Part shown: piece after piece, positions 20,447 to 35,387 of the stretch
Numbering within the stretch: position 1 is the first letter of the stretch
Layout: every line of letters begins with the position of its first letter
Source: Verrucomicrobiaceae bacterium E54
Lineage (GTDB): Bacteria > Verrucomicrobiota > Verrucomicrobiia > Verrucomicrobiales > Akkermansiaceae
Assembly: GCA_022548915.1 (NCBI GenBank)
Contig: JAKZES010000006.1
Coordinates: 62,001-126,000, forward strand
DNA length: 64,000 nt
Direction: 5' to 3'
Translations under genes and position numbers: made by a program
Notes under the pieces: generated by a model
The model's database searches: none
What the model was told of the DNA's origin: nothing
What the model saw: the letters and a program-made list of their open reading frames with translations, nothing else

Positions 20447-20559
20447 GTCCGGACCATCCCAAGCCGGAGGCTGTCGGTCAAACCCTGCCCGCCGGCGGGG
20501 TGCAACTGAAAGTGGTGCCGGGGCGTCCGTCTGAAGACTCCGGAAGAGTCCCGGGAAAC

Positions 20560-20666
20560 CTAGACTGCGGCGATTCATCGCCGCTTTGATGGAGGCGATT
20601 CATCGCCGATGGCCCGGCTCGCATTGAAATGCTTCGCCAAAGCGGCGATCAATCGCCGCAGTCTAG
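20560..20666. repeat. 107-bp palindromic repeat, copy 1
   Basis: It starts CTAGACTGCGGCGATTCATC and ends with the inverted counterpart ATCGCCGCAGTCTAG. The outer arms (about 28 bp) are self-complementary apart from one base. The arm GCGGCGATTCATCGCCGC is itself a palindrome. It is 105/107 identical to 35135-35241. Confidence 0.92.
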
Positions 20667-20859
20667 CCCGCATGTTTCACGTAGTGAAGCATGCGTTTTT
20701 CGCCGACGTGGGTCGGTCAATAGGCTGCGACGAGAAGCCGACTCGGCACGGTCGGCACGGAGTGTCGGCCGTGCGGCGTCGGGGCTAGCCCCGATAGCCC
20801 CGACTTGTCGGGGCGTATCGGCCCTCCGGGCGAACATTTCATGAAATGTTCAGGCTAGA
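20663..20859. repeat. Second palindromic intergenic segment (relative at 45138-45320)
   Basis: It begins TAGCCCGCATGTTTCACG and ends with the 20-base perfect palindrome GAACATTTCATGAAATGTTC (20832-20851) followed by AGGCTAGAG. In the middle is CGGGGCTAGCCCCGA. The same order of parts is seen in diverged form at 45138-45320. No gene is seen in 20860-21187 beyond repeats. Confidence 0.55.
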
Positions 20860-21187
20860 GGGGGATGCCTGCCGGCCGAAGTCGGCCCGGGAGAAAACCA
20901 CGCCGGAAGAGCGGACTGAGGTCCTCATATGGCCTCGCTGGCGAATCCGATATCCTGACGCCGGGAAGATTCTCCGGCCGGCAAGTCCCGGCCATGCCCA
21001 CCACTTTCAGTGACACCCGGGGCGATGGACAGGCGCTCCGGGCCAGCCCCAGAGGGACATTCAGCGGGCTGTCCACTTTCCGCTACACCCCCGCCGATGT
21101 ATTGCCCGGATGACGCGGATCCGCACATCCGGGCTGTCCCGGACCGGGCGTTTCGGCTATCGAGGAAAGGCATCCAACAACCTTCCG

Positions 21188-22387
21188 ATGAACTCGCGCG
21201 AACGCATCCAGGCCGCCCTCTGCCACAAGCCCGTGGACCGGGTGCCGATCGATCTCGGGGGCACCCGCCAGAGCGGCATCGCGGCGCTCGCCTACCAGCC
21301 TTTGCGCGAGTCGCTCGGGCTCGACACCCGGGCCCCTTTCCGGGTCTTCGACCTCTATCAGCAGCTGGCCGAGATCGAGCAGGAGGTGCTCGACTGGAGC
21401 GGCTCGGACACGATCGGCCTCAACCGCCCCAAGGTCGCCTTCGGCATTGAAAACCGCGACTGGAAGCCGTGGCGGCTGTGGGACGGGACGGAAGTCGAGG
21501 TGCCGGGAGGCTTCAACCCGGAGACCGAGGAGGATGGCGCGCTCGTGCTGCGCCGCGGCGACGAGGTCATCGCCCGGATGCCCTACCAGGGCTACTACTT
21601 CGACCGCTACGAAAAGTATCCGGGGGCTTCGCATCCCGACCTCGCGACGTGGCGACCACCCGGCGTGTCCGACGCCGACCTCGAGCACTACCACTCGCTG
21701 TCGCAGGTGCTTCACGACCAGACCGACAAGGCGGTGATCGCCGCGATGGGGCCGCCCTACGAGTTGTTCAACGGCATCGGCCAGGGTAGCTTCGAGGACT
21801 GGATGATCACCTTCGCGAGCGAAGACGACTACGTGGAGGAACTCTACGGCCTGCTGGTCGAGACCTGGTTGACGAACCTCGAAAAATTCCACGAGGCGGT
21901 CGGCGACCGGGTGCAGGTCATCCAGATCGCCGACGACTTCGGCACCCAGAGCGCACCCTTCCTCGCGACCGGCATGTTCCGCGAGAAGCTGCTGCCCTTC
22001 TACCAGCGCGGCCTCGACTGGATCCATGAGCACACCGGTTGGAAGGTCCTGCTGCACAGCGACGGTGCGATCCGGCCGCTCATCCCCTCGATCATCGAGA
22101 TGGGGGTCGATGCGCTCAACCCGGTCCAGCTTTCCTGCACCGGGATGGACCCGGAGGAGCTGCGCTCCGAATGCCGGGGCCGGCTGGCCTTCTGGGGCGG
22201 CTCGTGCGACAGCCAGGGGACGCTCGACAAGGGCGGCCCCGACGAGGTGGCGGCGGAGGTGCGGGCCAATCTCGACGCCTTCCGGCCGCGCGACGGCGGC
22301 TTCGTCTTCGCCAGCGTGCACAACATCCAGGCCAACGTGCCGGCCGCCAACATCCGGGCGCTGTTCGAAACCGCGCTGGGTTACTGA
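21188..22387 (+). CDS. Uroporphyrinogen decarboxylase-like / methyltransferase MtaA-CmuA family protein
   Basis: The 399-residue protein starts with the family signature MNSRERIQAALCHKPVDRVPID and keeps the TIM-barrel pattern (IQIADDFGTQSAPF, VLLHSDGAIRPLIPSIIEMG, GGSCDSQGTL, FVFASVHNIQANVPA). Members are either heme-pathway decarboxylases or cobalamin-linked methyltransferases. The long insert between the first strands and the lack of a classical URO-D FAGAPF-like active-site segment favour the latter or an unassigned enzyme. It is preceded by repeat element A rather than an obvious operon partner, so pathway context is missing. Confidence 0.82.
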   Translation: MNSRERIQAALCHKPVDRVPIDLGGTRQSGIAALAYQPLRESLGLDTRAPFRVFDLYQQLAEIEQEVLDWSGSDTIGLNRPKVAFGIENRDWKPWRLWDGTEVEVPGGFNPETEEDGALVLRRGDEVIARMPYQGYYFDRYEKYPGASHPDLATWRPPGVSDADLEHYHSLSQVLHDQTDKAVIAAMGPPYELFNGIGQGSFEDWMITFASEDDYVEELYGLLVETWLTNLEKFHEAVGDRVQVIQIADDFGTQSAPFLATGMFREKLLPFYQRGLDWIHEHTGWKVLLHSDGAIRPLIPSIIEMGVDALNPVQLSCTGMDPEELRSECRGRLAFWGGSCDSQGTLDKGGPDEVAAEVRANLDAFRPRDGGFVFASVHNIQANVPAANIRALFETALGY

Positions 22388-22418
22388 GAGCCGCAGGAGC
22401 TCCTGCCCGGCGAACTTC

Positions 22419-24263
22419 TCAAAGCCGGTTCTCGGCGATGTCCGCGAGCCGCAGAAGCGTGAGCTCGGCCGGAGAAAGCGAAGCGCGCTCCCGGATCAGT
22501 TCCGCGAGCAGCTTCGGATCGTCCGTGATGATCTGGTCGACCCCCATGCCGATCATCCGGTTCATCAGCGGCAGGTCGTTGACGGTCCAGACGTGCACTT
22601 CGAGTCCGGCGTGGTGGGCGCGGTCGATCAGGTCGCGCGTCACCGCCTTGGCGCTGACGCTGAGCAGCTCGCCCTCGAGGCGGGTCACATCGCCGATCGA
22701 GGAAGTCACGATCAGTCCGGTGCGGAACTCCGGGCCGGCGGCACGGGCGCGGAGAATGCCTTCGTAATCCAGCGAGGTCAGGATGCAGTCGTCGACAAAA
22801 TCATTCTCGCGAACGATCCGCACCACCTCGCGGGCGAGCTTCTGCTGGTGACCGTTGAACTTGAGTTCGATGTTGAGCCGCGCCCGCCCCTTCACGGCCT
22901 TGATCACCTGGTCCAGCGTCGCCAGCCGCTGGTCGCTGAACTCGGGCGAAAACCACCCGCCGCTGTCGAGATCCTTGAGTTCGTCGTAGGTCACCTCCCA
23001 GATGCCCTTCCGGATGCCGAAGACCCGGAGCAGGTCCTTGTCGTGCACCAGGACGACGGTGCCGTCCTTGGTTTCCTGGACGTCGATTTCGACGTAGTCG
23101 GCACCCTCCTCCACGGCGAGCAGGATCGCCGCCATGGTGTTCTCCGGGGCCGTGATCGAACTCCCGCGGTGGGCGGTGATCCCCACCTCCTCGGCGATCG
23201 GGCTGCTGTCGGCGATGCGCTTCGCCGCCGCCAGCGAAAGCGCCGTGAAGCCCAGGACGACCACCCAGCCGATCCGCAGCAGCCGCCCAAGCCTGGCAAG
23301 AACCCCCGAATCCCGGGTCGTCAGGGGCTCCGGAAGCGCGACACCCGGCCTCGACCCGACAAAGCGCCGGGCAACCATGCAGGCGAGCACCGTGCTCATG
23401 ACGAGGCTCACCAGTCCGGCGGCGAGGAACTGGAGCACGCTGAGCACCGCGGTCATCGAAAGCACCAGTCCGACATGGTCTCCCGCGAGCCCGAGCAGGA
23501 CCCACTTGAGGGCCGCCATGACCAGCCACAGGCCGAGGAAAAGCACGACCCCGATGCCCGCCCAGCGCAGCAGCATGATCAGCAGTTCGCGGCGCTGCGG
23601 ACGGGCGATCCGGGTGCTTTCACGCATCGCCTCGACGGGCGTGGCCCCATGGAAGAGCACGAGCGGGATGGAAAAGATCCAGTCGAGAAAACGGCGGCCG
23701 GCAAGGAACAGGAAGGCCAGCGCGCAAACCGCCGCCACCGCCACGGTGATCCAGAATGCCGGCGGCTTCGCGATGAGGTAATAGTTGATGTCGCTCTCGG
23801 TGAGCAGCGCGAGATAGGTCGCCCCGGTCACCGCGAGGCACGGCGCCGCGATCAGGAGATAGATGAGAAACTGGCGCACCGAGAGCTGCCACAGCCGCGG
23901 CAGCGCGGCGAACAGCAGGCGGAGCAGCCGCGGCAGATGAATGGACCCGACCTTGTGGACGGCCAGCGCAATGCCGAGCAGCCCGCCGAACTCGAAAAAG
24001 ACCAGCGCGAAGGCGAGGCTGACCACGACGGCGAGGTAGAGCAGCCCGGTCGGTGACAGGAAGAAGCCCGCGAGGTCATAGTTGCTGACCGCACCGCTGC
24101 CGGAGAGGGCGATGAGGCGGGCGGAAAGCCAGGCCACGAGCGGCGCGAAGAGGACCGCGCCGAGCAGGCGGACCAGCAGTTCGTAACCGACGAAGGGCAT
24201 CAGCCCGCTTCTCAGCGTCCCGGCCACGGAAAACTCGGACGGCGGGCGGGACTCAGACTCCAT
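22419..24263 (-). CDS. Membrane-anchored glycerophosphodiester phosphodiesterase
   Basis: The 614-residue protein has about eight hydrophobic segments in its first 340 residues, matching the GDPD membrane domain family. It then has a catalytic domain with ITAHRGSSITAPENTMAAI (His365, Glu372 region), YVEIDVQETKDGTVVLVHD and LNIELKFNG. The end has HVWTVNDLPLMNRMIGMGVD and IITDDP. All catalytic positions of the family (His, Glu, Asp, His) are visible. It hydrolyses glycerophosphodiesters to glycerol-3-phosphate and an alcohol. The C-terminal location of the catalytic domain fits GdpD proteins of Firmicutes type with a membrane front. Confidence 0.9.
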   Translation of the reverse strand: MESESRPPSEFSVAGTLRSGLMPFVGYELLVRLLGAVLFAPLVAWLSARLIALSGSGAVSNYDLAGFFLSPTGLLYLAVVVSLAFALVFFEFGGLLGIALAVHKVGSIHLPRLLRLLFAALPRLWQLSVRQFLIYLLIAAPCLAVTGATYLALLTESDINYYLIAKPPAFWITVAVAAVCALAFLFLAGRRFLDWIFSIPLVLFHGATPVEAMRESTRIARPQRRELLIMLLRWAGIGVVLFLGLWLVMAALKWVLLGLAGDHVGLVLSMTAVLSVLQFLAAGLVSLVMSTVLACMVARRFVGSRPGVALPEPLTTRDSGVLARLGRLLRIGWVVVLGFTALSLAAAKRIADSSPIAEEVGITAHRGSSITAPENTMAAILLAVEEGADYVEIDVQETKDGTVVLVHDKDLLRVFGIRKGIWEVTYDELKDLDSGGWFSPEFSDQRLATLDQVIKAVKGRARLNIELKFNGHQQKLAREVVRIVRENDFVDDCILTSLDYEGILRARAAGPEFRTGLIVTSSIGDVTRLEGELLSVSAKAVTRDLIDRAHHAGLEVHVWTVNDLPLMNRMIGMGVDQIITDDPKLLAELIRERASLSPAELTLLRLADIAENRL

Positions 24264-24474
24264 GGCGGGCGGAAATTCTTCGGGTCATGGGCAGGCGGAT
24301 GGGCCCTACACTGGACCGATTCGGCGGGGAGTCCAGTACCGGCCGGGCCGCCAACCGCCCGCCGGGGCGTCGATCCCACGGCAACCGCCGCCGGTCCCGG
24401 CACCCCCGGTGATTTTCCGTGACACGAAAGGACTCCGCCCGACGTTATATTTCGGTCGAGGACCCACCATCTCC

Positions 24475-27009
24475 ATGAAAGCTCACACCATCGCAAAAAC
24501 CCTGCTGCTGGCCGTCACGACCGTCGCCATTTCCAACAGCTGGGCCATTTCCTCCGACAGCGAGCGGCGGCTCGGGACGCAGTACGAGAAGCAGTTCAAG
24601 GAACTCAAGGCCGACCTCGAAAAGGCGCTGGCACGGATCGATGCACGCGGCAAGGCGGACTACCTCGCCGCCCGCAAGGCCGAAACCGAGGCCGAGGTGA
24701 AGCTGAAGGAGGCCCGGGACCGCGTCGGCAAGGTCGGGGCGGCCCAGGGGCTGGTCGCTCACGCCAAGGGCAAGTGGATCGGCGGTGCCGAAAAGGGCAT
24801 CGCCGCCACCAAGGCGAAACTCAAGGAGGCCAAGACTGCGGACGAACGCAAGGCGGCCGAGCAGGAACTCGCCAAGTGGGAAAAGAACAAGCAGGAAGGA
24901 CTCGCGGCACTCGAGGAACGGCAGGCACAGCTCGACGAAGCCCTCAAGGACAAGCCGGCCGCCGAGAAGGCCCTCAAGCAGGCGCAGGAGACGCTCGCCG
25001 CCGCCAAGGCACGGACGATGCAGGCGCTCGAGGATCTCGGGCTGGAGAAGCTCCTGACGAGCAACACCTACGACGGACCGCTGGCGAAGTTCGTCGTGAT
25101 GAACGAAGCCACGCCGGACAAGCTCGCGGCCTTTGCCGGACAAGGCCGGGAACAGGAGGCGATGATCGAGGCGATGCTCGCCGACGACGCCCTGCTGGTC
25201 CAGATGGCCGTGGCCGACGGTGCCCGCGGCGGCAACTACGGCCGGGCGATGGAGATCTACCACGGGATCCGCGAGGCCAGCGAGCAACCCATCGAGGGCA
25301 CCTTGCAGCGCCTGGCGCTGGCGATCAGCCTCGAGCACGCCACCCCCCACCAGCAGCGCAATGCGGTCGCCGCCACCGACGCCCCTGCCGAGGTCGATCC
25401 GGTGGGTCGCTACCTGCAGTACGAGAAGGCCTTCCTCAACGGCCGCCTCGACCCGGCCTTCGCCAACCTCACCGTGTGGGACATGCGCTACGTGGTGGAC
25501 GGCGAGGAGCCCGACGAGATCAGCGTGTGGGGCCGCGAAATGCTGCGCACCTACCGTCCGGACCACATCACGATGAACGACTACCGCTGGCGCTACGTCG
25601 CGCTGGTGCGCTCGGACATTCCCTACGGCTCGCAGAACGTGAAGGACGACAAGGACGAGCTGCAGTTCTTCCAGAACATCCTCATGAATGGCGGCGTGTG
25701 CGGGCGCCGCGCCTTCATCGGCCGCTTCATTCTGCGCGCCTTCGGCATTCCCACCACCGCCCGCCCGCAGAAAGGCCACGCCGCGCTGGCCCACTGGACC
25801 CCCGACGGCTGGGTCGTCTGCCTCGGTGGCGGCTGGGGCGCCGGCTGGACCAAGACGCCCTACGATCGCGACCGCGATTTCCTCGCCACCACCCAGGCAC
25901 GGGCGACCGGCGCCCACTACCTGCGGGTCAAGCGTGCCCATTGGATTGCCGACCTGATGGGTGAGAAGCGCGTCTGGGGACTGGAGGGCAAGGCCGAGCC
26001 CGGATTCTGGAACGGCATCGCCCTCAACACCCAGCGCGCCCTGATCGAGGCCGCCGACGCCAAGACGCTCGAAGCCGTCGGCGAGGACATCGCCGAGGCC
26101 AGCGACACCAAGGAGAAGATCGAGATCGTCGAGGTCGAGATCACCGATGACGACCGCAAGATCCGCGAGGAGGACGGGGTGATCCGGATCCCCGCTGCCG
26201 CGACCGAAGGCAGCCGCGGCATCCAGTTCATGGACAGCAGCCTCGGCGGCAAGCAGCTCCACTACGGGAGAGGTAGTAATGCCGAGTTCGAGTATGCCTT
26301 CCAGACCAGGACCAAGGGCAAGCACGCGCTCGTCGCCCGGCTCGCCACGCCAAGCTGGAAGCAGTCTTTCGATGTCACGGTCAACGGCGACGAGGTCGTC
26401 CCGATGCCGCTGCCCCACACGGTCGGCCTGTGGGGCACGAGCGAGCCGATCGCGGTCGAGCTGAAGAACGGTCGCAACACGCTGCGCTTCAAGCGGACCG
26501 CCGACAGCAACTCGAAGGGGATCACCATCAAGGAATTCAAGCTGGTTCCCTGGGATCAGCGCGAGGAACTGCTCGTCGCGGAGGAGGCCGCTCCGGAGGA
26601 GGAGACCGGCGTGTCGTCATCCTACCAGAACCTGCTCGCCACCTCGCTGCTGCAGTCCCTCGCCGGCATCAGCAAGGACGGCCGGCTGGAGCCGCTGCCG
26701 ATGGATCTCTCGATCACCGGATCCCGGGTCAAGCTGCTGGAGGCCAGCGGCAGCGGCATTCTCGCCTTCCAGGCCGAGGAGGGCGGCAAGGTCGTGCCGG
26801 TGGCGATGGAGGACCTCAAGCTCGAGGACCACGCCCTCCTCGCCCGGTTGGTCGCCCGGCTCTGCCCGGACGATCCGACCGCCCACGCCCTTGCCGGTGC
26901 CTACATGGAGGCCGTTGGCGATGCCGCGCTTGCCGCAGACTACCGCCGCAAGGCCGGTGCCGAGGTGGTCGAGCAATTCACCGCGATGCTCCAGCAGCAG
27001 GCGAAGTAG
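24475..27009 (+). CDS. Secreted transglutaminase-like protein with coiled-coil front
   Basis: From ATG 24475 it is 844 residues: signal peptide (1 to about 25); long charged coiled coil (about 30-190); then a transglutaminase/protease-like core. The core has NGGVCGRRAFIGRFILRAFGIP (Cys409 in GGVCGRRAF) and KGHAALAHWTPDGW (His435 or His440 with Asp444), the Cys-His-Asp arrangement of the superfamily. A beta domain follows (about 590-690). It is probably periplasmic or surface located, acting as an amidase, protease or crosslinker. The next gene starts 31 bases downstream on the same strand, suggesting an operon. The 211 bases upstream show no repeat. Confidence 0.78.
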   Translation: MKAHTIAKTLLLAVTTVAISNSWAISSDSERRLGTQYEKQFKELKADLEKALARIDARGKADYLAARKAETEAEVKLKEARDRVGKVGAAQGLVAHAKGKWIGGAEKGIAATKAKLKEAKTADERKAAEQELAKWEKNKQEGLAALEERQAQLDEALKDKPAAEKALKQAQETLAAAKARTMQALEDLGLEKLLTSNTYDGPLAKFVVMNEATPDKLAAFAGQGREQEAMIEAMLADDALLVQMAVADGARGGNYGRAMEIYHGIREASEQPIEGTLQRLALAISLEHATPHQQRNAVAATDAPAEVDPVGRYLQYEKAFLNGRLDPAFANLTVWDMRYVVDGEEPDEISVWGREMLRTYRPDHITMNDYRWRYVALVRSDIPYGSQNVKDDKDELQFFQNILMNGGVCGRRAFIGRFILRAFGIPTTARPQKGHAALAHWTPDGWVVCLGGGWGAGWTKTPYDRDRDFLATTQARATGAHYLRVKRAHWIADLMGEKRVWGLEGKAEPGFWNGIALNTQRALIEAADAKTLEAVGEDIAEASDTKEKIEIVEVEITDDDRKIREEDGVIRIPAAATEGSRGIQFMDSSLGGKQLHYGRGSNAEFEYAFQTRTKGKHALVARLATPSWKQSFDVTVNGDEVVPMPLPHTVGLWGTSEPIAVELKNGRNTLRFKRTADSNSKGITIKEFKLVPWDQREELLVAEEAAPEEETGVSSSYQNLLATSLLQSLAGISKDGRLEPLPMDLSITGSRVKLLEASGSGILAFQAEEGGKVVPVAMEDLKLEDHALLARLVARLCPDDPTAHALAGAYMEAVGDAALAADYRRKAGAEVVEQFTAMLQQQAK

Positions 27010-27040
27010 GCACGAGCGCCACCCCCCCAATTCCAACATC

Positions 27041-28213
27041 ATGAACACCCGCCCCTATTCCTCCATGGCTCTGCTTGCCATGGCCGCCGCCGCCGTGACC
27101 GGCTCTCTCGCTGCCAAGCCGCTCAAGGTCTTCATCCTCACCGGCCAGTCCAACATGGAGGGCCATGCCCAGACCCGCACCTTCCCCGCGGTCGCCAAGG
27201 ACCCGAAGACGGCCGACCTCTACAAGAAGATGGTCGATGCCGATGGTGAGCCGGCGACGATCGAGGACGTGTGGATCGCCTATTCCTACGGGGACTTCGG
27301 AGGAAATCCGGTGGGCAAGCGCTCGGGGCAGCTGACCTCGGGCTTCGGCAGCCAGCACCACGTGGGAACCGGCAAGATCGGCCCCGAGCTGACCTTCGGC
27401 ATCACGATGCACGAGCACCTCGGCGAGCCCATCCTGCTGATCAAGAATGCTTGGGGCGGCAAGAGCCTGATGGTCGACTTCCGCCCGCCAAGCGGTGGTG
27501 AACTGGAGGATGAAAAGGCCAAGGAGCGGGCCGGAAAGTACTACGGTCACATGATGGACCACGTGAAGGAAGTGCTGGCCGATCCCAAGAAGGTCTATCC
27601 GGACTACGACGAGAAGGAGGGCTACGAGCTGGCCGGCTTCGTCTGGTTCCAGGGCTTCAACGACCTCGTGGGGAACTACCCGCGGGTCGATCCCGCCCAG
27701 GGCAAGAAAAGCGTCAAGGACTACTCCGAATACAGCCGGCTGCTGGCCTGCTTCATCCGCGACGTCCGCAAGGACCTCTCCGCTCCCGGGCTGCCCTTCG
27801 TGATCGGGGTGCTCGGCACCGGCGGCGAATCGGCCGGCGACAACACGGACGCCTTCCGCAAGGCGATGGCCGCACCCGGAGAGTCGGACGAGTTCAAGGG
27901 AACGGTCGCCAACGTCTTCACCCACGAATACTGGCCCGCTGAGATCGAGGCGGTCATGGAGAAGGTGAATGCCGTGAACAAGGAGTTCGCCGATCGGGAT
28001 CGCGAGATCAAGCAGCGCCGGAAAGACGGCGGGGAGTGGAAGGAGGATGCCGCCAAGCTGGAGGCGGAAAAGAAGGCGAAGATCGAGGAGGCCCTGAGTG
28101 AGGAGGAGCTGTTCCAGTACGAGGTGGGGCGCTCCAACCAGGGTTTCCACTACCACGGCTCGGCCAAGTTCTTCGCCCGCATCGGCAAGGCCTTCGCGGA
28201 GGCGCTGGTGTGA
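27041..28213 (+). CDS. Secreted SGNH/SASA-family carbohydrate esterase
   Basis: The 390-residue product has a signal peptide (about 1-25) and the esterase motif KVFILTGQSNMEGH with Ser37 as nucleophile. Block III is FVWFQGFNDLVG, and the C-terminal block is NQGFHYHGSAKFFARIG, giving the catalytic His. An unusual highly charged helical insert (about 310-360, QRRKDGGEWKEDAAKLEAEK) precedes this block. It probably de-acetylates polysaccharides. Start ATG 27041 gives a clean signal peptide. It follows the transglutaminase-like gene closely. Confidence 0.87.
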   Translation: MNTRPYSSMALLAMAAAAVTGSLAAKPLKVFILTGQSNMEGHAQTRTFPAVAKDPKTADLYKKMVDADGEPATIEDVWIAYSYGDFGGNPVGKRSGQLTSGFGSQHHVGTGKIGPELTFGITMHEHLGEPILLIKNAWGGKSLMVDFRPPSGGELEDEKAKERAGKYYGHMMDHVKEVLADPKKVYPDYDEKEGYELAGFVWFQGFNDLVGNYPRVDPAQGKKSVKDYSEYSRLLACFIRDVRKDLSAPGLPFVIGVLGTGGESAGDNTDAFRKAMAAPGESDEFKGTVANVFTHEYWPAEIEAVMEKVNAVNKEFADRDREIKQRRKDGGEWKEDAAKLEAEKKAKIEEALSEEELFQYEVGRSNQGFHYHGSAKFFARIGKAFAEALV

Positions 28214-28555
28214 ATGGGGTCAGGTGCTGCATTTTAACATTTGGATACGGCATTCATGGTAGTTTTGGACGGAACGAGCCGTCTTGCTCCTTCGATTTCC
28301 TCAGTCCGTGTCTTTCCGCGCTCCATTTGGCGACGCGCAGAATGGCATCGGGCATGTGGTGTCCGATGAGGGTGATTTTCAGTTCGTCGGGATGGGGTCG
28401 GCCGGGCTTGGTCTTGATTGGGTATTTGCCGATTCGCACACCGCGAGAACTGATGATGAGTTGGATGCCATTGAGGAACTCCCCGGCGCTGTTCGTGCCC
28501 CCCGGTTGCAGTCGGCCTGTGGGGCGAATGAACCACGTCCCGTTGAGAATTCGGG
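28214..28555. other. Non-coding stretch with possible transposon-end or gene remnant
   Basis: Immediately after the esterase stop the plus strand reads GGGGTCAGGTGCTGCATTTT. An end with ACCTGACCCC beside A/T-rich sequence is reminiscent of sequences next to IS200/Tyr-type transposases in many genomes, though this is from memory. On the minus strand a frame can be read (GEFLNGIQLIISSRGVRIGK, then HPDELKITLIGHHMPDAI) that has no start of its own and merges into the SDR gene in another frame. Its amino-acid mix is not that of a random GC-rich shadow. A decayed mobile element passenger is possible. Confidence 0.35.
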
Positions 28556-29206
28556 CTACTCCGGCCGGCTGTCGAGCTGGAAGACCTGGCCGGAGGTGTG
28601 CGGGAGGTGGTGGTGGAGGTGGACGAGGAAATCGGCGGTGGCCTGCGGGGTGTTGAGTCGGCCGAGGCAATGGGAGGCGAGGACGGCGGTGCGGTGATCC
28701 TTGCCGACTCCGGCGGTCATCCGGGTTTCGAGAAATCCGGGGAGCAGGGTGTTGACGCGGATTCCGGCGGGGCCGAGCTCCCGGGCGAGTGAGCGGGCAA
28801 AGCCGAGGAGCCCGGCCTTGGCGGCGGCGTAGGTGGCCTGGCCGGGGGCCGGATGGCATGCCGCATGGCTGGCGACAAAGACCAGATGACCGCTCCGTCG
28901 CTTGATCATCCCCCAGGCCACGGCCTTGGCGCAGCGGTAGGCACCGTGGAGGTTGACCTCCAGCTGGCGATCCCACGAATCCTCAGCGGTGCGCGCGAGC
29001 AGCCGGTCTTCCGCCAGCCCGGCATTGGCGATCAGCAGGTCCGGCGTTTCCGCCGTCGCGAAATACCGCTCGACCGAAGTGGAATCGGCGACGTCGAGAT
29101 CCCTGCGACCCGGCGCATCGACCCGGTCGCCCGCCCTCTCGAAGGCATGGCCGATGGCCCGGGCGAGGTCGCCCTCGCCGCCGGTGATCAGGATTCGCTG
29201 GCCCAC
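28556..29206 (-). CDS. Short-chain dehydrogenase/reductase (SDR)
   Basis: A 216-residue classical SDR with nucleotide-binding ILITGGEGDLARAIGHAF (glycine motif 9-12), NAG at 61-63, catalytic Ser113 (FVASHAACHP) and YAAAK (Tyr126, Lys130). It ends with the typical TSGQVFQLD. It is shorter than the 250-residue norm, with the compact loops seen in FabG-like relatives. It reduces a keto group or oxidises an alcohol with NAD(P), substrate unknown. The gene starts 52 bases downstream of the TPR protein on the same strand. Confidence 0.88.
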   Translation of the reverse strand: MGQRILITGGEGDLARAIGHAFERAGDRVDAPGRRDLDVADSTSVERYFATAETPDLLIANAGLAEDRLLARTAEDSWDRQLEVNLHGAYRCAKAVAWGMIKRRSGHLVFVASHAACHPAPGQATYAAAKAGLLGFARSLARELGPAGIRVNTLLPGFLETRMTAGVGKDHRTAVLASHCLGRLNTPQATADFLVHLHHHLPHTSGQVFQLDSRPE

Positions 29207-29258
29207 GGGCCGATCATGGACAGGGGAAGCGGGCGGGGGAAGGCGGGAGGCGACGACC

Positions 29259-29789
29259 TCATTTGGCCGGCCGGATCACGGTCGCGTGCTCGTCGTAGCG
29301 GGCGGTGGCGCCGACCTGTTGGAGAAGGTAGTCGAGTGCCACCTTGGCGGGAACATTCTTGAGCCGGAGGTTCACTTCCTTGTCACCCAGTGACCCGCCC
29401 GGATCCTGCACCATGAAGTTGGGTGTCAGCGCCTTGTCTTCGCCGCGGCTCTTGGCCGATTCGGTCTCGATCATCTGTCCGAGCGCGGCGAGCGCCTCGT
29501 TGAGGGTCACGCCGGCAAAGTCGATGGCCGGCAACCGGATCTCGGCAAGTTCCGCGGCACGGCGCTGGGCCTTGAGCGCCTCGGCCCGGGCGGGAAGCTG
29601 GCCGAGCTGGTAGCGGGCCTGGGCGTGGTTGGGCTGAATTCTGAGCGCCTCCCGGAAGGCCTTCTCGGCGGCCTCGGGTTGACCCTGGTTCATGGCGGCG
29701 AGACCCATCTGGTAGAGCCGCTCGGCATCGTTGGAAAACGCGGGCAGCGAGGTGGCGATGAGGACGAGGAGAAGAACGATGGATTTCAT
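29259..29789 (-). CDS. Secreted TPR protein with secretin/STN-like tail
   Basis: The 176-residue protein has a signal peptide (MKSIVLLLVLIATSLPAFS) and one or two TPR motifs (about 22-60, AAMNQGQPEAAEKAFREALR, NHAQARYQLGQL). The C-terminal half (about 85-176) has AIDFAGVTLNEALAALGQM and VNLRLKNVPAKVALDYLLQQ, typical of STN/secretin N-domain folds. It probably takes part in envelope assembly or a type II secretion-like complex. No partner gene lies nearby. Name not assignable. Confidence 0.72.
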   Translation of the reverse strand: MKSIVLLLVLIATSLPAFSNDAERLYQMGLAAMNQGQPEAAEKAFREALRIQPNHAQARYQLGQLPARAEALKAQRRAAELAEIRLPAIDFAGVTLNEALAALGQMIETESAKSRGEDKALTPNFMVQDPGGSLGDKEVNLRLKNVPAKVALDYLLQQVGATARYDEHATVIRPAK

Positions 29790-29911
29790 GGGCTTGGGAC
29801 GGGTCTGGTGACGAATTCTGACGGGCGATATGCAGCTACAAGCTTGCGCAGATTCGGCGATCCATCAATCCCGGAGTTGCGTGGAGCGCCGGGAGCGGGC
29901 ATTTCGGTAGG

Positions 29912-30964
29912 GTGACCGATGACGAACGGTGGATGGCGAGGGCCATCGAGGAAGCGGAACGTGGCGTGGGGAAGACCGCGCCGAATCCGCCGGTGGGCTG
30001 CGTGATCGTTCGCGACGGGATGGAAATCGGCGCGGGATGGCATCGACGGGCGGGCCAACCCCACGCCGAGCGCGAGGCGATCGCCGCGGTCGCCGGGATC
30101 CACGGCCCCGAGGCGCTGCGCGGGGCGACGGCCTACGTGACGCTCGAGCCGTGTTCGACCCACGGGCGGACGCCGCCATGCACCGGTGCCCTGGTCGAAG
30201 CGGGCATCGGCCGGGTGGTTTTCGCCTGCACCGACCCGAACCCCGCCCACGCGGGGGCGGCGGTGGGCGTGCTTCATTCCGCGGGAATCGAAGTGACCCG
30301 GGGCGTGCTGGAGGACGAAGCCCGGCACCTGATCCGTCCCTTCTCGAAGGTGCAGGCCACGGGCCTGCCGTGGGTGCTGTGGAAGACGGCGATGAGCCTC
30401 GACGGGCGCCTGACCCGTCCGCCGGGCGAGGGGATGTGGCTGACGGGGCCGGCCTCGCGCGCCGAGGTCCAGCGCCTGCGATCCGGGGTGGATGCCATCG
30501 TGACTTCCGGGGAGACCGTGCGCCGCGACCGGCCCCGGCTCAATCTACGGGACTTGCAGTACTTGGATGGCCGGGATCAGCCGTGGCGGCTGGTCCTGAC
30601 CGATCGGCCCGACTCGTTGCCGCAGGATGCGCCGCTGTTCGCGGACGGTCATCGCGAGCGCACCGTGGTGCGTCCGCGCGGCGACCTGGCGGCGGTCCTG
30701 CGCGAGATGGTGTCGGAGTTCGATGTCGCCACCGTGATGCTCGAATGCGGGGGGCGCCTGGCGGCGGACTTCGCCGAAGCGGGACTGATCGACGAGGTGG
30801 TGGCATTCATGGCGCCGGTGTTGTGCGGCGGGCCGGTTCCCGCGTTGGGGGGCGGGGGTCTCCCCGAAGGTTGCGGGCTCGACGGGGTGAGCTTCCGCCG
30901 CTTCGACGACGACGTGATGATGCGCGGCGTGCTCCGTCACGGGACTCTCACGCAAGACGCTTGA
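29912..30964 (+). CDS. ribD: Bifunctional riboflavin biosynthesis deaminase/reductase RibD
   Basis: The 350-residue protein joins an N-terminal deaminase with zinc-binding residues His51 (HAE, PHAEREAIAAV), Cys81 and Cys90 (LEPCSTHGRTPPC). A C-terminal reductase follows (about 150-350, WVLWKTAMSLDGRL, DAIVTSGETVRRDRPRLN). It performs steps two and three of riboflavin synthesis. Start GTG 29912 gives the family-typical MTDDERWMARAIEEAERG. No other rib gene or FMN riboswitch is seen around it. Confidence 0.95.
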   Translation: MTDDERWMARAIEEAERGVGKTAPNPPVGCVIVRDGMEIGAGWHRRAGQPHAEREAIAAVAGIHGPEALRGATAYVTLEPCSTHGRTPPCTGALVEAGIGRVVFACTDPNPAHAGAAVGVLHSAGIEVTRGVLEDEARHLIRPFSKVQATGLPWVLWKTAMSLDGRLTRPPGEGMWLTGPASRAEVQRLRSGVDAIVTSGETVRRDRPRLNLRDLQYLDGRDQPWRLVLTDRPDSLPQDAPLFADGHRERTVVRPRGDLAAVLREMVSEFDVATVMLECGGRLAADFAEAGLIDEVVAFMAPVLCGGPVPALGGGGLPEGCGLDGVSFRRFDDDVMMRGVLRHGTLTQDA

Positions 30965-31022
30965 AGGTTTCACCCCGGGATCATTCGGCGTTCATCCGGT
31001 TGCGGATCATGGGAGCCGTCCT

Positions 31023-31301
31023 ATGAGTAATACCATGAATGCTGAAGTTGAATCCGTGACCCGTCGCAACGGTTGGAAAGCCAGTGTGCGACCGGTCCTG
31101 AGTTATGGCATCGCCATCGGCCTGACGCTTGCCGGTCCGGCGCTGATGGCGTCCGCCTTGATCCTCGCCCTGCTGGCGGGTGATGCGTCCATCATCGGGC
31201 TGGGCCTGCTTGCCGGGGCGTTTCTCGGTGCCGCCGGTGCGGTCGCCCTGCTCTGGTGCTTGGCGGAATCGCGCGGCTCCCGGAGTGCCGACATGGCATG
31301 A
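31023..31301 (+). CDS. Small two-helix membrane protein
   Basis: The 92-residue product has two hydrophobic stretches (about 28-52, SYGIAIGLTLAGPALMASAL; 55-82, IIGLGLLAGAFLGAAGAVAL) after a positively charged N-terminus. No family recognised. It lies 58 bases downstream of ribD on the same strand and may be co-transcribed. A role in the membrane is all that can be said. Confidence 0.6.
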   Translation: MSNTMNAEVESVTRRNGWKASVRPVLSYGIAIGLTLAGPALMASALILALLAGDASIIGLGLLAGAFLGAAGAVALLWCLAESRGSRSADMA

Positions 31302-31330
31302 CGCCCGATTGGTCCGAGCATGCAAGGGTG

Positions 31331-31400
31331 GGCCGATGGCTCCTGCCGGCCGGGGCCATCGGCCGGGCCTGTGGGCGGGCCTGTGGCCGGGCCTGTGGGC
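31331..31400. repeat. 10-bp stem-loop followed by three 12-bp tandem repeats
   Basis: GGCCGATGGC (31331-31340) pairs with GCCATCGGCC (31355-31364). Then GGGCCTGTGGGC, GGGCCTGTGGCC and GGGCCTGTGGGC run in tandem (31365-31400). It fills the gap between two convergent genes and could act as a transcription end point, but has no T-run. Confidence 0.7.
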
Positions 31401-31431
31401 GGGTGCATTCCCTGCGCACGGGGGACGCGCG

Positions 31432-32454
31432 CTACTTGCCGAAGAGTTGCGTCCAGTGACTGCCGTGCCGACCAAGACCGATCCGGGTGTGATTGGCGCC
31501 GAAGAGGTTCTTGTGGTGGCCGGGTGAGAAGAACCAGCCCTTGTTGGCGGACTCGGGCTGGGTCGAGCCCGCGTAGATGTTTTCACCCGAGGCCGTGGTG
31601 CCGAAATTCCTGGCCCGGTCCCAGGGTGTGGCCTTTCCCGGAACCGGCGACTCGTGGGCGAAGAACCCCTGCTCGGCCATGTCCTTCGAGTGGTCGCGTG
31701 CGGCCTCGCAGAGTTTTGGATCGATTTCGAGCGCGTTGAGGCCGACGAGCAGACGCCACAGGTTTGCCTCTTCGACTCCCCGCGCTTCGTCTTCGGGCAC
31801 CCCCGTGTCCTCGGCCGTCCTGCGGTTCTTCTCGAGGATCCGCAGGCCATCGCGGGGCAAGTCACCGGTTTCAGCGGCAATGCGCGCCTCGGCAGCGGCG
31901 AGTTGTTCGACCGAGTCGCTCGGGGTGGCGGAATAGTCGGCATCGAGCGCGGCATCGCGGAATCGGGCGAGCTGGGTGGCGGCTTGCCGCAGCTTGGTGG
32001 TCGCCGGCGGGAGCTTGGCCACGATCTCACCCGCGCTGGGGGCCAGCATCTGGCGGAGTTCTTCCACCGCGGGCATGCTCTTGGATTTGAGCAGCGGCTT
32101 CATCGGGGCCTCGTCGAGGTTGCGGATCCGCAGAAACTCCTCGCGCAGGTCCCGGATGCGCTTCCGGGAATCATTCCCGCCGCCGACCACCGAAGCGGCT
32201 TCGTCCTCCAATGTCTTGAGGTAGCGGTCGCGCACCCCGGGCCACGCCTTGTTGAGGTCGGCCAGCAGCGCCTTGAGCGTGTCGCCGTCCTTGTCCTCGA
32301 GGGACTCGCAGATGGGGTCGATCGACTCGCCCCTTTCAAGCCGGGTCTGGAATGCCGCCAGCAACTCGTCGGAGGCGAGATTGGCGGCGGCCGGGACGGC
32401 GAGGCAGGCCAGCAGGATGACGAGTCGGGTGGTCACGAAATGAACGCGGGGCAA
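31432..32454 (-). CDS. Secreted CAP/SCP-like domain protein
   Basis: The 340-residue protein has a signal peptide (about 1-24), then a helical region (about 30-200). At the C-terminus is a CAP (SCP/TAPS) domain with NLWRLLVGLNALEIDPKLC, HSKDMAEQGFFAHESPVPG, GENIYAGS, WFFSPGHHKNLFG and HTRIGLGRHG. The His and Glu pair typical of CAP cavities is present. The function of bacterial CAP proteins is poorly known (surface, possibly binding or protease-like). It stands alone between a convergent and an upstream minus-strand small gene. Confidence 0.85.
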   Translation of the reverse strand: MPRVHFVTTRLVILLACLAVPAAANLASDELLAAFQTRLERGESIDPICESLEDKDGDTLKALLADLNKAWPGVRDRYLKTLEDEAASVVGGGNDSRKRIRDLREEFLRIRNLDEAPMKPLLKSKSMPAVEELRQMLAPSAGEIVAKLPPATTKLRQAATQLARFRDAALDADYSATPSDSVEQLAAAEARIAAETGDLPRDGLRILEKNRRTAEDTGVPEDEARGVEEANLWRLLVGLNALEIDPKLCEAARDHSKDMAEQGFFAHESPVPGKATPWDRARNFGTTASGENIYAGSTQPESANKGWFFSPGHHKNLFGANHTRIGLGRHGSHWTQLFGK

Positions 32455-32497
32455 GGATGCTCGGCCCCTTGCCCCGCGTCGAGTCGGATCCGGTGGA

Positions 32498-32851
32498 TCA
32501 GCGGCACTTGCGTGCGGAGCCTCCGCCGACGATCACCGGGCCGATGCGGAAGCCGGTCGAGCGGTGGCTCCGGACACTGCGGCCGTAGTGCGTGCGGGGC
32601 GCATAGCTGTGGCCGTAGGCGTGGTGCGAGCGGCAGCGGTGGTTCACCGACAGCGTCCGGGTGCGGTAGATCGGACGGCCGGTGCAGCGGTCGTAGTAGG
32701 CGACGTAGCGCTGGACGTAGACCGGGCAACCGCAGCTGGTGTAGTGGCTGACGTAGGTGTGGCTGCTGTTGCAACCGGGGCGGGCTTCGGCATCGGGAGC
32801 GGCGATGAAGCCGGCGCCGATCACGGTGAGGAGTGCAAACAAGTTCTTCAT
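32498..32851 (-). CDS. Small secreted His/Tyr/Arg/Cys-rich protein
   Basis: The 117-residue product has a signal peptide (MKNLFALLTVIGAGFIAAPDAEA) and a mature part rich in H, Y, R, S and C (HTYVSHYTSCGCPVYVQRYV, RCRSHHAYGHSY). Five cysteines and many histidines suggest metal binding or surface crosslinking. No known family. It lies 43 bases before the CAP protein on the same strand. A functional link is not shown. Confidence 0.65.
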   Translation of the reverse strand: MKNLFALLTVIGAGFIAAPDAEARPGCNSSHTYVSHYTSCGCPVYVQRYVAYYDRCTGRPIYRTRTLSVNHRCRSHHAYGHSYAPRTHYGRSVRSHRSTGFRIGPVIVGGGSARKCR

Positions 32852-32923
32852 GGCATGTGTGTTTCGGATTCGTCCCTTCGACCGCGGTGCCGTGAAATTT
32901 ATTCAGACAACTTTCGGGGATCG

Positions 32924-32960
32924 GCAAAAAAGAACCCGCACCGGCCGGGCCGATGCGGGT
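32924..32960 (-). terminator. Rho-independent terminator after GYF_2 gene
   Basis: On the minus strand a GC-rich hairpin (ACCCGCATCGGCCC with GGCCGGTGCGGGT) is followed by TTCTTTTTTGCC. It lies 25 bases after the stop of the gene at 32985-33830. Confidence 0.8.
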
Positions 32961-32984
32961 GTTGAACGAGTCGGGGACGTGGTC

Positions 32985-33830
32985 TCAGCGAACGGCGGCG
33001 TAGTTGACCGCCCGTGCGATCGACCGCTGCACAAGCAGGTAAACGATGATCATCGGAATCAGGCCGAACACGCTGAGAATGCCGCACGCAAGAGCGGTGA
33101 TGGGATAGGCGAGGAACATGCCCTCGCTCATCTGCGGTGCCTGGGGGTGGTTGGGGTTGTTGGCCACGAGGCGGTTCCACTCCTGAGCCCATCGCCAATA
33201 AGCGACAAAATACCAGTAAAGGTTGTAGAAGGGAATGAAGAGGAAACCAACTGCCTTTCCCGGGGTGCTGTAATGCGTATGTGGCTGAAGCAAAACCCAC
33301 CCGCGATACAGATGAACCAAACCGATGATCCAGCCGGTCATCCATGGGATCAGAGACAGGTAGATGAGTATCATCGGAGTGGTCATGGCTTCCTCTGGAG
33401 CCGCATTCCCTGCGGAGGTCATCTGAAAAATCACGGCGAACAGCCATCCGTAGCTGGCGAGCATGCCGATGACGCCGACCAAGGTGAAAACGGCGACAAG
33501 AGTGAAGTTCGCCGCTTTGACTTTCGGAAGTTCTTCAATGCCTGATCCCGATCCGGCAGGTGGATGGACTGCCGCTGGCGCTGCATAGGGATTCACCTCG
33601 CCGGCCGCGGGCGCTGGAATGGCGGTGCCGGTCGGGGCCACGGCGGCGGCGGGCTGGAATGCCGATCCGAGTTCGTCGATCATGTTGGCGGGCTTCCAGT
33701 CCTCCATGCCCTCCCGCCAGACCAGGTCGGCGGCGGGATCGAAGTCGCCGTTCGAGGCGAGACGCTGAAGCTCGGAGACGGGGACCGGGCCCTTCTGTTC
33801 GCCGCCGTGGGCGTAGTACCATTCACTCAT
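32985..33830 (-). CDS. GYF_2-domain membrane protein (paralogue 1)
   Basis: The 281-residue protein starts with a GYF_2 domain (residues 2-58, EWYYAHGGEQKGPVPVSEL, FDPAADLVWREGMEDWKPA) facing the cytosol. A Pro/Ala-rich linker follows (NPYAAPAAV). Four hydrophobic segments (about 108-275, for example VGVIGMLASYGWLFAVIFQM) come next. GYF_2 domains are thought to bind proline-rich peptides. Homologues are DUF4190 or RDD-like membrane proteins with no assigned role. The adjacent gene upstream is a paralogue with near-identical domain DNA. A terminator follows it. Confidence 0.78.
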   Translation of the reverse strand: MSEWYYAHGGEQKGPVPVSELQRLASNGDFDPAADLVWREGMEDWKPANMIDELGSAFQPAAAVAPTGTAIPAPAAGEVNPYAAPAAVHPPAGSGSGIEELPKVKAANFTLVAVFTLVGVIGMLASYGWLFAVIFQMTSAGNAAPEEAMTTPMILIYLSLIPWMTGWIIGLVHLYRGWVLLQPHTHYSTPGKAVGFLFIPFYNLYWYFVAYWRWAQEWNRLVANNPNHPQAPQMSEGMFLAYPITALACGILSVFGLIPMIIVYLLVQRSIARAVNYAAVR

Positions 33831-33882
33831 CGCCTCTGCATCCTAGCGGTTGGCGAAATGGGATCGCAAGCACCGTGGACAA

Positions 33883-34935
33883 TTAGTTGGCCGGGCGGAC
33901 CACGCCCGATCCGTATTGCATCCAGCGGTAGGCCACCACGCCCGCGAGCCAGACGATGGGGTAGGCGAAGACCACGCCCACGCAGAGCGCGAGGACGCCG
34001 GCAATGACGATGAGAAAGCTGAGTATCGCCAGGCCGAGGAGGGGCCACTTCTGTCCCTCGGTGATGCGTGAGCTGTAGGCGAGCGACTCCATCACGCCCA
34101 TGTCGCGGTCGACGATCGCCGACTGGTACTGGCCATAGCGGAGGGCGATGTAGATGCCCGGGACGATCAGCAGGACCAATCCCACCGCGACCGCCAATCC
34201 GTAGAGCAGCCCGGCGAGGAAGGCGCGAACCAGCTTGCCGGCTTCTCCGAACAGCATGCCGATGGTGAACTCCCGGCCATCGACGATGTTCAGTCCGATG
34301 CGGGTCATTCCCAGGGCGAGGAACACGGAAACGAGTTGGTTGATCAGGTTCACCACGATCGAAACCAGGACCTGGGCCGGGGTGATTTCCTGGTTCTGCG
34401 GTTGGAACTCGCCGGTCTGGGGATCGATCTCGAACCCGGGCTGGATGCCGCCTCCGAGGAGTCCCTCGATCACCCCGAAGACCGAGCCCGCCGTCCACGA
34501 GATGGCTCCGAAGATGACCACGACGGCAATGACCATGCCGAGATTCGCCTTCATCAACTCGAAGCCCCGCGAAATGCAGGCACCCACCTGGAGCGGGTCG
34601 CTGCCCGGAGGGATTTCCTGGCGGTCGTCCCCGGCCATTCCGGACGAGGCCATGACGGTTTCCGGTGCGGCCGGTGCGGCGTAGGGATTGAAGTCGCCGG
34701 AGGCCGGCGTCGCGGGTTCCGCAGTGGTCGGAGCGGTGGGAAGCTCCTCGGTGGCGGGCTGGAACAGGGATCCAAGTTCCTCGACCGCACCGGCCGGCTT
34801 CCAGTCGGGCATGCCGTCCCGCCAGACCAGGTCGGCGGCGGGATCGAATTCTCCGGTGCCGGCCAGACGCTGGAGCTCGGAAACGGGAACCGGACCCTTC
34901 TGTTCGCCGCCGTGGGCGTAGTACCACTCGCTCAT
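33883..34935 (-). CDS. GYF_2-domain membrane protein (paralogue 2)
   Basis: The 350-residue protein shares its first 58 residues almost completely with the neighbour at 32985 (WYYAHGGEQKGPVPVSELQR). Its linker is longer and its membrane part different: about six segments (about 137-345) including an amphipathic section typical of glycerophosphoryl-diester-phosphodiesterase membrane-type or DUF975-like families (FGAISWTAGSVFGVIEGLLG). The two genes probably form one transcript (52 bases apart). Function unknown. Confidence 0.78.
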   Translation of the reverse strand: MSEWYYAHGGEQKGPVPVSELQRLAGTGEFDPAADLVWRDGMPDWKPAGAVEELGSLFQPATEELPTAPTTAEPATPASGDFNPYAAPAAPETVMASSGMAGDDRQEIPPGSDPLQVGACISRGFELMKANLGMVIAVVVIFGAISWTAGSVFGVIEGLLGGGIQPGFEIDPQTGEFQPQNQEITPAQVLVSIVVNLINQLVSVFLALGMTRIGLNIVDGREFTIGMLFGEAGKLVRAFLAGLLYGLAVAVGLVLLIVPGIYIALRYGQYQSAIVDRDMGVMESLAYSSRITEGQKWPLLGLAILSFLIVIAGVLALCVGVVFAYPIVWLAGVVAYRWMQYGSGVVRPAN

Positions 34936-34991
34936 CAGGGCGGCACGCTAACAGACCAGTGGGGTGCCCGGCAAGGCCGGGGGTGGGTGGG

Positions 34992-35301
34992 GGTGTCACT
35001 GAAAGTGGTGGGCAGAGCGGTTGGGGTGACCGCGAAGCAGTGGGCCACGGCCGGACTTTTCAGGCTCGGTGTTCCTCCCTTGCTCCCTTGCTCCCTGGCT
35101 TCACTCCGCCCCGGATGGGGAGCCGCCGGGAAATCTAGACTGCGGCGATTCATCGCCGCTTTGATGGAAGCGATTCATCGCCGATGGCCCGGCTCGCATT
35201 GAAATGCTTCGCCAAAGCGGCGATGAATCGCCGCAGTCTAGAGAGTGATGCCGGGCGGCCGGCAAGTCCCGGCCATGCCCACCACTTTCAGGTACACCCG
35301 G
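34992..35301. mobile_element. Composite element B bounded by the same inverted ends
   Basis: The left end GTGTCACTGAAAGTGGTGGG (34994-35013) is inverted relative to the right end, which contains CACCACTTTCAGGTACACCC (35280-35299). It encloses a 107-bp hairpin (35135-35241), a CT-rich stretch (about 35070-35100) and the 45-bp segment 35257-35301 that also occurs at 20976-21020. No gene is inside. The element sits between divergent genes. The rest of 34936-35387 shows no gene. Confidence 0.6.
35135..35241. repeat. 107-bp palindromic repeat, copy 2
   Basis: 105/107 identical to 20560-20666. The outer arms CTAGACTGCGGCGATTCATC and its counterpart are perfect here, so the full-length hairpin is intact. 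Confidence 0.92.
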
Positions 35302-35387
35302 TGGGTGGTGCTTTGCGGCCGGACGGGATGGAGGAAGTCGTCGGTGGAAAAGCTTCTCTTTGGCTTTTGCGGGCCCAGAGTGAATTC

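Follow-up and report, generated by a model that had tools for sequence, protein, structure and literature searches.

Two near-identical 107-bp repeats in the genome of Verrucomicrobiaceae bacterium E54 are very probably REPINs, i.e. inverted doublets of repetitive extragenic palindromic (REP) hairpins, which are the non-autonomous partners of a REP-associated tyrosine transposase (RAYT) encoded on contig C211 and which have been spread here as cargo of a miniature inverted-repeat transposable element (MITE). Both repeats lie in a stretch of 64,000 nucleotides that we call the window (positions 62,001 to 126,000 of contig JAKZES010000006.1, referred to as C222, in a 5.9-Mb draft genome). The assignment draws on the anatomy and copy number of the doublet, on the hairpins that flank the cognate gene and accompany its homologues in several phyla, on covariation in the hairpin stems and on the nesting of the doublet in a MITE.

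The two copies (20560..20666 and 35135..35241, both on the plus strand) differ at two of 107 positions, just as the original prediction had it: in the spacer (GGAGGCG vs GGAAGCG) and in the right arm (GATCAATC vs GATGAATC). Each consists of an inverted pair of short hairpins, GACT-GCGGCGATTCATCGCCGC-TTT, with the tags pointing outward: an unpaired GACT stands directly 5' of a 7-bp stem, which is closed by a 4-nt loop and followed by TTT. In copy 1, the left REP unit (GACT tag plus hairpin GCGGCGATTCATCGCCGC) occupies 20563..20584 on the plus strand (C222:82563-82584) and the right unit, inverted and with the loop variant TTGA, 20642..20663 on the minus strand (C222:82642-82663). The corresponding units of copy 2 are located at 35138..35159 (C222:97138-97159, plus strand, again GACT and GCGGCGATTCATCGCCGC) and 35217..35238 (C222:97217-97238, minus strand). 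The facing units are separated by a spacer with a third, tag-less palindrome, which in copy 1 reads GGCGATTCATCGCC (20594..20607, plus strand). Two inverted REP hairpins with a spacer between them are the hallmark of REPINs and of bacterial interspersed mosaic elements (BIMEs).

The outer arms of the repeat are indeed complementary over 29-30 nt, completely in copy 2 and to 97% in copy 1, and both copies fold very stably whether treated as RNA or as DNA (z-scores of about -9 to -11; none of 200 shuffles folded equally well). The earlier claim that one difference breaks the pairing in copy 1 holds for the long arm-to-arm hairpin, in which the right-arm difference is a mismatch, but not for the short REP hairpin, where the same difference changes the loop from TTCA to TTGA and leaves the stem intact; the TTGA variant is also present in the copies on C192 and C219. 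Covariation between copies had been named beforehand as a check, and it is strong in the short stems. Among 33 distinct hairpins (29 picked by their flanks only, four added from the genus and window type), 93.1% of the stem cells pair, compared to 67.8% after shuffling, double changes number 58 vs 14.9 (0 of 500 shuffles as high) and the covariation score is 0.607 vs 0.137, while structures slid along the sequence reach a pairing of 59.7% at most. Over 39 inverted pairs, 91% of cells are paired in the local stems and 78% in the drifting cross-arm stems; at positions that differ between the arms, the local pair survives in 94 cases and is broken in 30. Because the local hairpins keep pairing at such positions, we reject the long hairpin as the functional form: the conserved unit is the short hairpin.

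The genome-wide search that the original prediction had called for revealed many further copies, at least 19 complete and six partial or single ones at about 25 places. With copy 1 as query, 48 matches were obtained, about 16 of them near-identical or truncated near-identical, and the remainder includes diverged relatives with GCGGCGCTTCAGCGCCGC hairpins. A search with the hairpin pattern found 40 units at one mismatch or less, compared to none for the reversed pattern; the 19 doublets comprise these units together with slightly more diverged ones from a further search, and the tags point outward in all 19. Four of the six unpaired units are located at contig ends and are probably two loci split by the assembly. 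Shorter copies of 73-76 bp (C178, C11:85k and C251) seem to have lost the DNA between the left hairpin and the middle palindrome by deletion.

In other genomes, at least 104 stretches contain the exact pattern GACTGCGGYGNTTCANCRCCGC, and those listed belong mostly to Planctomycetota and Verrucomicrobiota, with further ones in Lentisphaerae, Armatimonadota and UBP15. Conservation extends into the flanks beyond the search pattern, where the tag is preceded by TTTG and the hairpin followed by TTTC. Of 51 pairs of neighbouring units in this wider set, 45 are inverted with outward tags, eight of the 45 being double-foot forms with a GACT-to-AGTC spacing of 26 bp. Symmetric 34-bp forms, TTTGGACT-hairpin-AGTCCAAA, are found at L176, L190, L208, L224, L225, L260, L262 and L263 of Planctomycetaceae D1_Bin_8 and RYN_439, and look like REPINs from which the spacer has been deleted. 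A related species carries a tandem array of units of about 300 bp with one REPIN each (L132, G014 C75:39151-42153).

The cognate RAYT gene is an open reading frame (ORF) of 197 amino acids (C211:130306-130896, minus strand), positioned exactly between two doublets (C211:130194-130309 and 130953-131064). Its score lies below the Pfam cut-off, and it was found only by a hidden Markov model (HMM) that was built from local RAYTs and run on the ORFs of all element loci. The protein matches the NCBIfam model REP_Tyr_transpos (NF047646) with E 1e-20, as do, at their own scores, all 14 members of its family; a UBP15 homologue exceeds the cut-off of Pfam Y1_Tnp with 26.4 bits. A profile of 14 homologues recovers the E. 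coli TnpA-REP structure (PDB 4er8) at E 3e-9 and no other chain under 0.1, and both the HUH motif N65-H66-Y67-H68 (NHYH) and a catalytic-type Y127 are invariant in the 14 sequences. With this motif, a single catalytic-type tyrosine and homology to TnpA-REP, the family is, judged by its sequences, a RAYT/TnpA-REP family. None of the 17 Pfam Y1_Tnp loci of the genome has a hairpin of the window kind within 1.5 kb, and none of 30 such loci in two relatives has one in its neighbourhood; the hairpins around those other RAYTs belong to other hairpin families.

The association between hairpin and RAYT extends over several phyla. We compared the best 30 homologue loci from 387 Verrucomicrobiota genomes with 47 other Y1 loci. 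By a loose criterion, a GGA[CG]T-tagged hairpin is present in 20 of the 30 cognate loci and in 10 of the 47 controls, several of which are single matches. Selection by the flanks alone (GGASTG-N16-CTTT, structure being left free) yields 52 matches in 15 of the 30 cognate loci vs none in the 47. The loose test is weaker than the strict one because L154 (G014) carries GGAGT-tagged hairpins of another type. A further 20 genomes, including ones from Armatimonadota, Lentisphaerae, UBP15 and Planctomycetota, were picked because they hold the motif, and therefore test position and not co-occurrence: tagged hairpins flank seven of the nine strongest homologues and none of the 21 others (two intermediate, L372 and L373, and 19 weaker). 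Among the hairpins next to the RAYT in UBP15, Armatimonadota and Planctomycetota is GCGGCGATTCATCGCCGC, with every letter as in the window. A cognate RAYT flanked by its own REPs is thus found on C211 and beyond it. Many further Y1 transposase homologues from Planctomycetes-Verrucomicrobia-Chlamydiae (PVC) and other genomes (L372-L383, L387-L395) have no GGAST hairpins nearby. The GGAGT-tagged hairpins at L154 (G014 C94), and those at L037 and L038, accompany a different RAYT clade and have another sequence, GGCGCTCTCCGGAGCGCC, arranged in inverted pairs at L154, which suggests that the GGAGT tag occurs with more than one lineage of RAYTs.

The inverted hairpin pairs bracket the C211 RAYT at both ends in a manner that resembles an insertion sequence, and long inverted repeats have been described around TIRYT genes (PMC3733652). 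The units might accordingly be seen as the ends of a terminal inverted repeat (TIR) type element (TIRtron, Di Nocera 2013) or of an IS200-like insertion sequence and not as REPs. We consider this very unlikely: solo doublets far outnumber the gene-carrying copies, the units, hairpins with an unpaired tag on their 5' side, agree with the definition of REPs, the reported TIR motif GGGGWSAS is not matched, and TIRs are described as mostly unrelated to REPs (PMC3733652).

The 107-bp repeat does not stand alone but is the core of a larger one with 23-bp ends, GGGTGTCACTGAAAGTGGTGGGC. Around copy 2 the outer element spans 309 bp (34991..35299, plus strand) with GGGTGTCACTGAAAGTGGTGGGC as terminal inverted repeat, and is bordered by the 9-bp target-site duplication GGTGGGTGG on the left (34982..34990) and on the right (35300..35308). 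Around copy 1 it spans 521 bp (20498..21018, plus strand), with a degenerate left end GGGTGCAACTGAAAGTGGTG, the right end CACCACTTTCAGTGACACCC and no clear target duplication. Copies elsewhere in the genome bring the range of lengths to 155-521 bp. The target duplication agrees at 9 of 9 positions in two MITE copies, 8 of 9 in three and 7 of 9 in one; the MITE at C11:85k has the perfect duplication GATTCGGAT on both sides. Target duplications of 9 bp point to a DDE-type transposase rather than to a Y1 enzyme. With terminal inverted repeats, a target duplication and no coding capacity, the outer element is a MITE; in the 18 genomes of the genus we found no autonomous insertion sequence with its ends, only MITE-sized pairs. 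MITE copy 1 differs by an extra segment of about 192 bp (20667..20858) between two CTAG sites, with further palindromes (CATGTTTCACGTAGTGAAGCATG, GGGGCTAGCCCC and GAACATTTCATGAAATGTTC). This segment is absent from the other MITE copies, and one of its palindromes occurs only at copy 1 among the loci examined; possibly it is another CTAG-ended hairpin element. MITE copy 2 is adjoined by a 226-nt repeat (33606-33831 and 34711-34936, 79% identical), the second copy of which overlaps the GYF-domain gene (33883-34935).

Given this nesting, the hairpin could merely be internal sequence of a DDE-type MITE, with no RAYT involved: both window copies and about 13 REPIN loci in all lie inside the MITE, and the 9-bp duplication at copy 2 is perfect. 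As a full explanation, however, this is contradicted and improbable. At least eight doublets of the genome are located outside the MITE, MITE copies without a REPIN exist (about 155-161 bp, at C11:46k, C110:53.8k and probably, with poor ends, C177), and the hairpin accompanies its own RAYT across phyla. In the copy on C189 the REPIN is inverted relative to the MITE. Moreover, the REPIN is less variable than the left MITE arm, which is the fair comparison as the right side is rearranged in some copies (11 of 107 vs 41 of 136 variable columns; Fisher p = 1.5e-4). Possible causes of the low variability and the inversion are RAYT-driven copying, selection, and gene conversion or flipping between the inverted arms. 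What the MITE does explain is why the two window copies are alike: they are nearly identical because they hitch-hiked in it, in addition to the extra conservation of the REPIN itself. The original prediction had suggested a REP or a MITE, and both halves of that reading hold, as a REP doublet inside a MITE. It had also offered recent spread or selection on the folded form; the copies have spread as MITE cargo, and the folded form that is conserved is that of the short hairpins and not of the long one.

A very stable fold on either strand and a variability below that of the surrounding MITE would also be expected of a conserved protein-binding or RNA element (a terminator, an mRNA stabiliser, a gyrase or IHF type site) under host selection, and enterobacterial REPs have acquired such roles (PMC8266576, PMC6006769). 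For the present repeats we regard this explanation as very improbable. A scan of the window with the Rfam covariance models gave no match, leaving the RNA element that had been proposed without support. Both window copies are intergenic and precede divergent genes instead of lying at operon ends (copy 1 between sulfatase and URO-D family genes, copy 2 between GYF-domain and DUF3108-like genes). Their presence is patchy, with exact-type hairpin matches in three of the 18 genomes of the genus, and they are strictly associated with a transposase family.

Several observations weigh against the interpretation as REPINs mobilised by the C211 RAYT. The C211 protein, with 73.7 bits, scores just below the NCBIfam cut-off of 80, and Pfam Y1_Tnp matches it only at E 0.12. 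The REPINs that flank its gene carry the GCGGCGCTTCAGCGCCGC hairpin, one base pair off the abundant window type, and the tag in this genome is (C)TAGACT, without the GG of the wider family. Ten of the 30 cognate loci lack a strict GGAST hairpin, and the REP-rich Planctomycetota D1_Bin_8 and RYN_439 possess only weak homologues of the C211 RAYT; their REPs may be driven by another RAYT. A copy number of about 25 is low for a REP family. Finally, neither movement of a REPIN nor an empty site for its insertion was seen, and the CTAG at both ends of the 107-bp repeat, either a duplication or the repeat's own sequence, is suggestive only.

Nevertheless, from the anatomy and the association we infer RAYT-driven mobility, including cleavage, transposition and tag recognition by the C211 enzyme. 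The tag 5' of each REP hairpin (GACT here, TTTGGA[C/G]T across the family) would serve as a guide. By analogy with studied RAYT/REP systems, the RAYT would bind the single-stranded hairpin and its tag, probably on the lagging-strand template, and would cleave and rejoin the DNA in such a way that the doublet spreads or is rearranged. One REPIN subtype of this genome has become the cargo of a separate DDE-type MITE that makes 9-bp target duplications. With the MITE it was dispersed to about 13 sites, the two in the window among them, and this explains the two near-identical copies.

CTAG is rare in the window as a whole (17 sites vs 62 expected from dinucleotide shuffles), and six of the 17 lie within or beside the two REPIN copies. 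The window also contains three direct repeats: 4372-4671 / 5266-5565 (300 nt, 88% identical), 4909-5069 / 8492-8652 (161 nt, 70%) and 5125-5173 / 8702-8750 (49 nt, 98%).

REPINs and RAYTs as a kind of system are already known (PMC3116915, PMC2817692); what seems to be new here is the non-canonical GA[C/G]T tag. A literature search for the hairpin and tag sequences returned only incidental matches (e.g. primers) among the top-ranked results, with figures and supplements outside its coverage, and earlier notice is possible. With the REPINs and BIMEs of Pseudomonas and E. coli (Bertels & Rainey 2011, PMC3116915) the present family shares inverted doublets of about 70-150 bp with a variable spacer, a doublet-flanked cognate RAYT and tandem clusters (here the G014 C75 array), but it differs in its GACT/GAGT instead of GTAG tag, its nesting in a DDE-type MITE and its low copy number. 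Described tags are GTAG or GTGG, and CGTC, and GTAG repeats are abundant in the verrucomicrobium Opitutus terrae (PMC3733652). Members of the GTAG and CGTC superfamilies are short palindromes too, with four unpaired nucleotides at one end, and often form inverted dimers (PMC3733652). In contrast to the GTAG (GT[AG]G) superfamily, the present family has GACT or GAGT as its tag, in most relatives with TTTG in front of it; the CGTC superfamily differs both in its tag and, according to PMC3733652, in having no transposase, whereas the window family has one.

On the protein side, the C211-type RAYTs resemble, by eye against Table 1, TnpA-REP subclass 2.8 (motifs NHYH, W[YH] and YIHYNP; PMC6006769): they share NHYH, a W followed by an aromatic residue or His, Y-x-H-x-NP and a proline-containing N-terminus. 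However, that subclass is reported only from Cyanobacteria in the sample of PMC6006769 and is flanked by GT[AG]G REPs, whereas the hairpins beside C211-type RAYTs carry GACT/GAGT. The residues of E. coli TnpA-REP that contact GTAG are Q95, E100, H101 and R104 (PMC6006769). In a by-eye alignment to 4er8, Q95 is replaced by an aromatic residue or His, H101 and R104 by other residues, and E100 by Asp in most rows. Class 3 TnpA-Y1 genes of Planctomycetes and Acidobacteria also adjoin tagged hairpins other than GTAG in PVC bacteria, but their tag is CnGA and their Y-motif YVxxEQ, compared to YVHxNP here (PMC6006769). The double-foot REPs of subclass 2.4 are similar to the 34-bp forms of Planctomycetota, and spacer-deleted REPINs were proposed there too, with a different tag sequence (PMC6006769).

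We lean towards regarding these elements as a further REP/RAYT tag class, with the guide TTTGGA[C/G]T instead of GTAG and a separate RAYT lineage that has other residues at most GTAG-contacting positions, common to Verrucomicrobiota, Planctomycetota, Lentisphaerae, Armatimonadota and UBP15, in which hairpins can be letter-identical across phyla and REPINs can be taken up by unrelated DDE-type MITEs and dispersed with them. RAYTs are seen as the first case of domestication among bacterial transposases, and their way of choosing REP targets is still debated. Known REP tags are nearly all GTAG, which in E. coli TnpA-REP is read by a defined set of residues; a GACT/GAGT tag paired with different residues at the GTAG-contacting positions would represent a natural experiment on how the guide is recognised. 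The usual description of REPs as species-specific is challenged by the near-identical hairpins that accompany homologous RAYTs in several phyla. Finally, their nesting in a MITE demonstrates a second, unrelated route of REPIN spread, a point to consider when RAYT activity is estimated from copy numbers.

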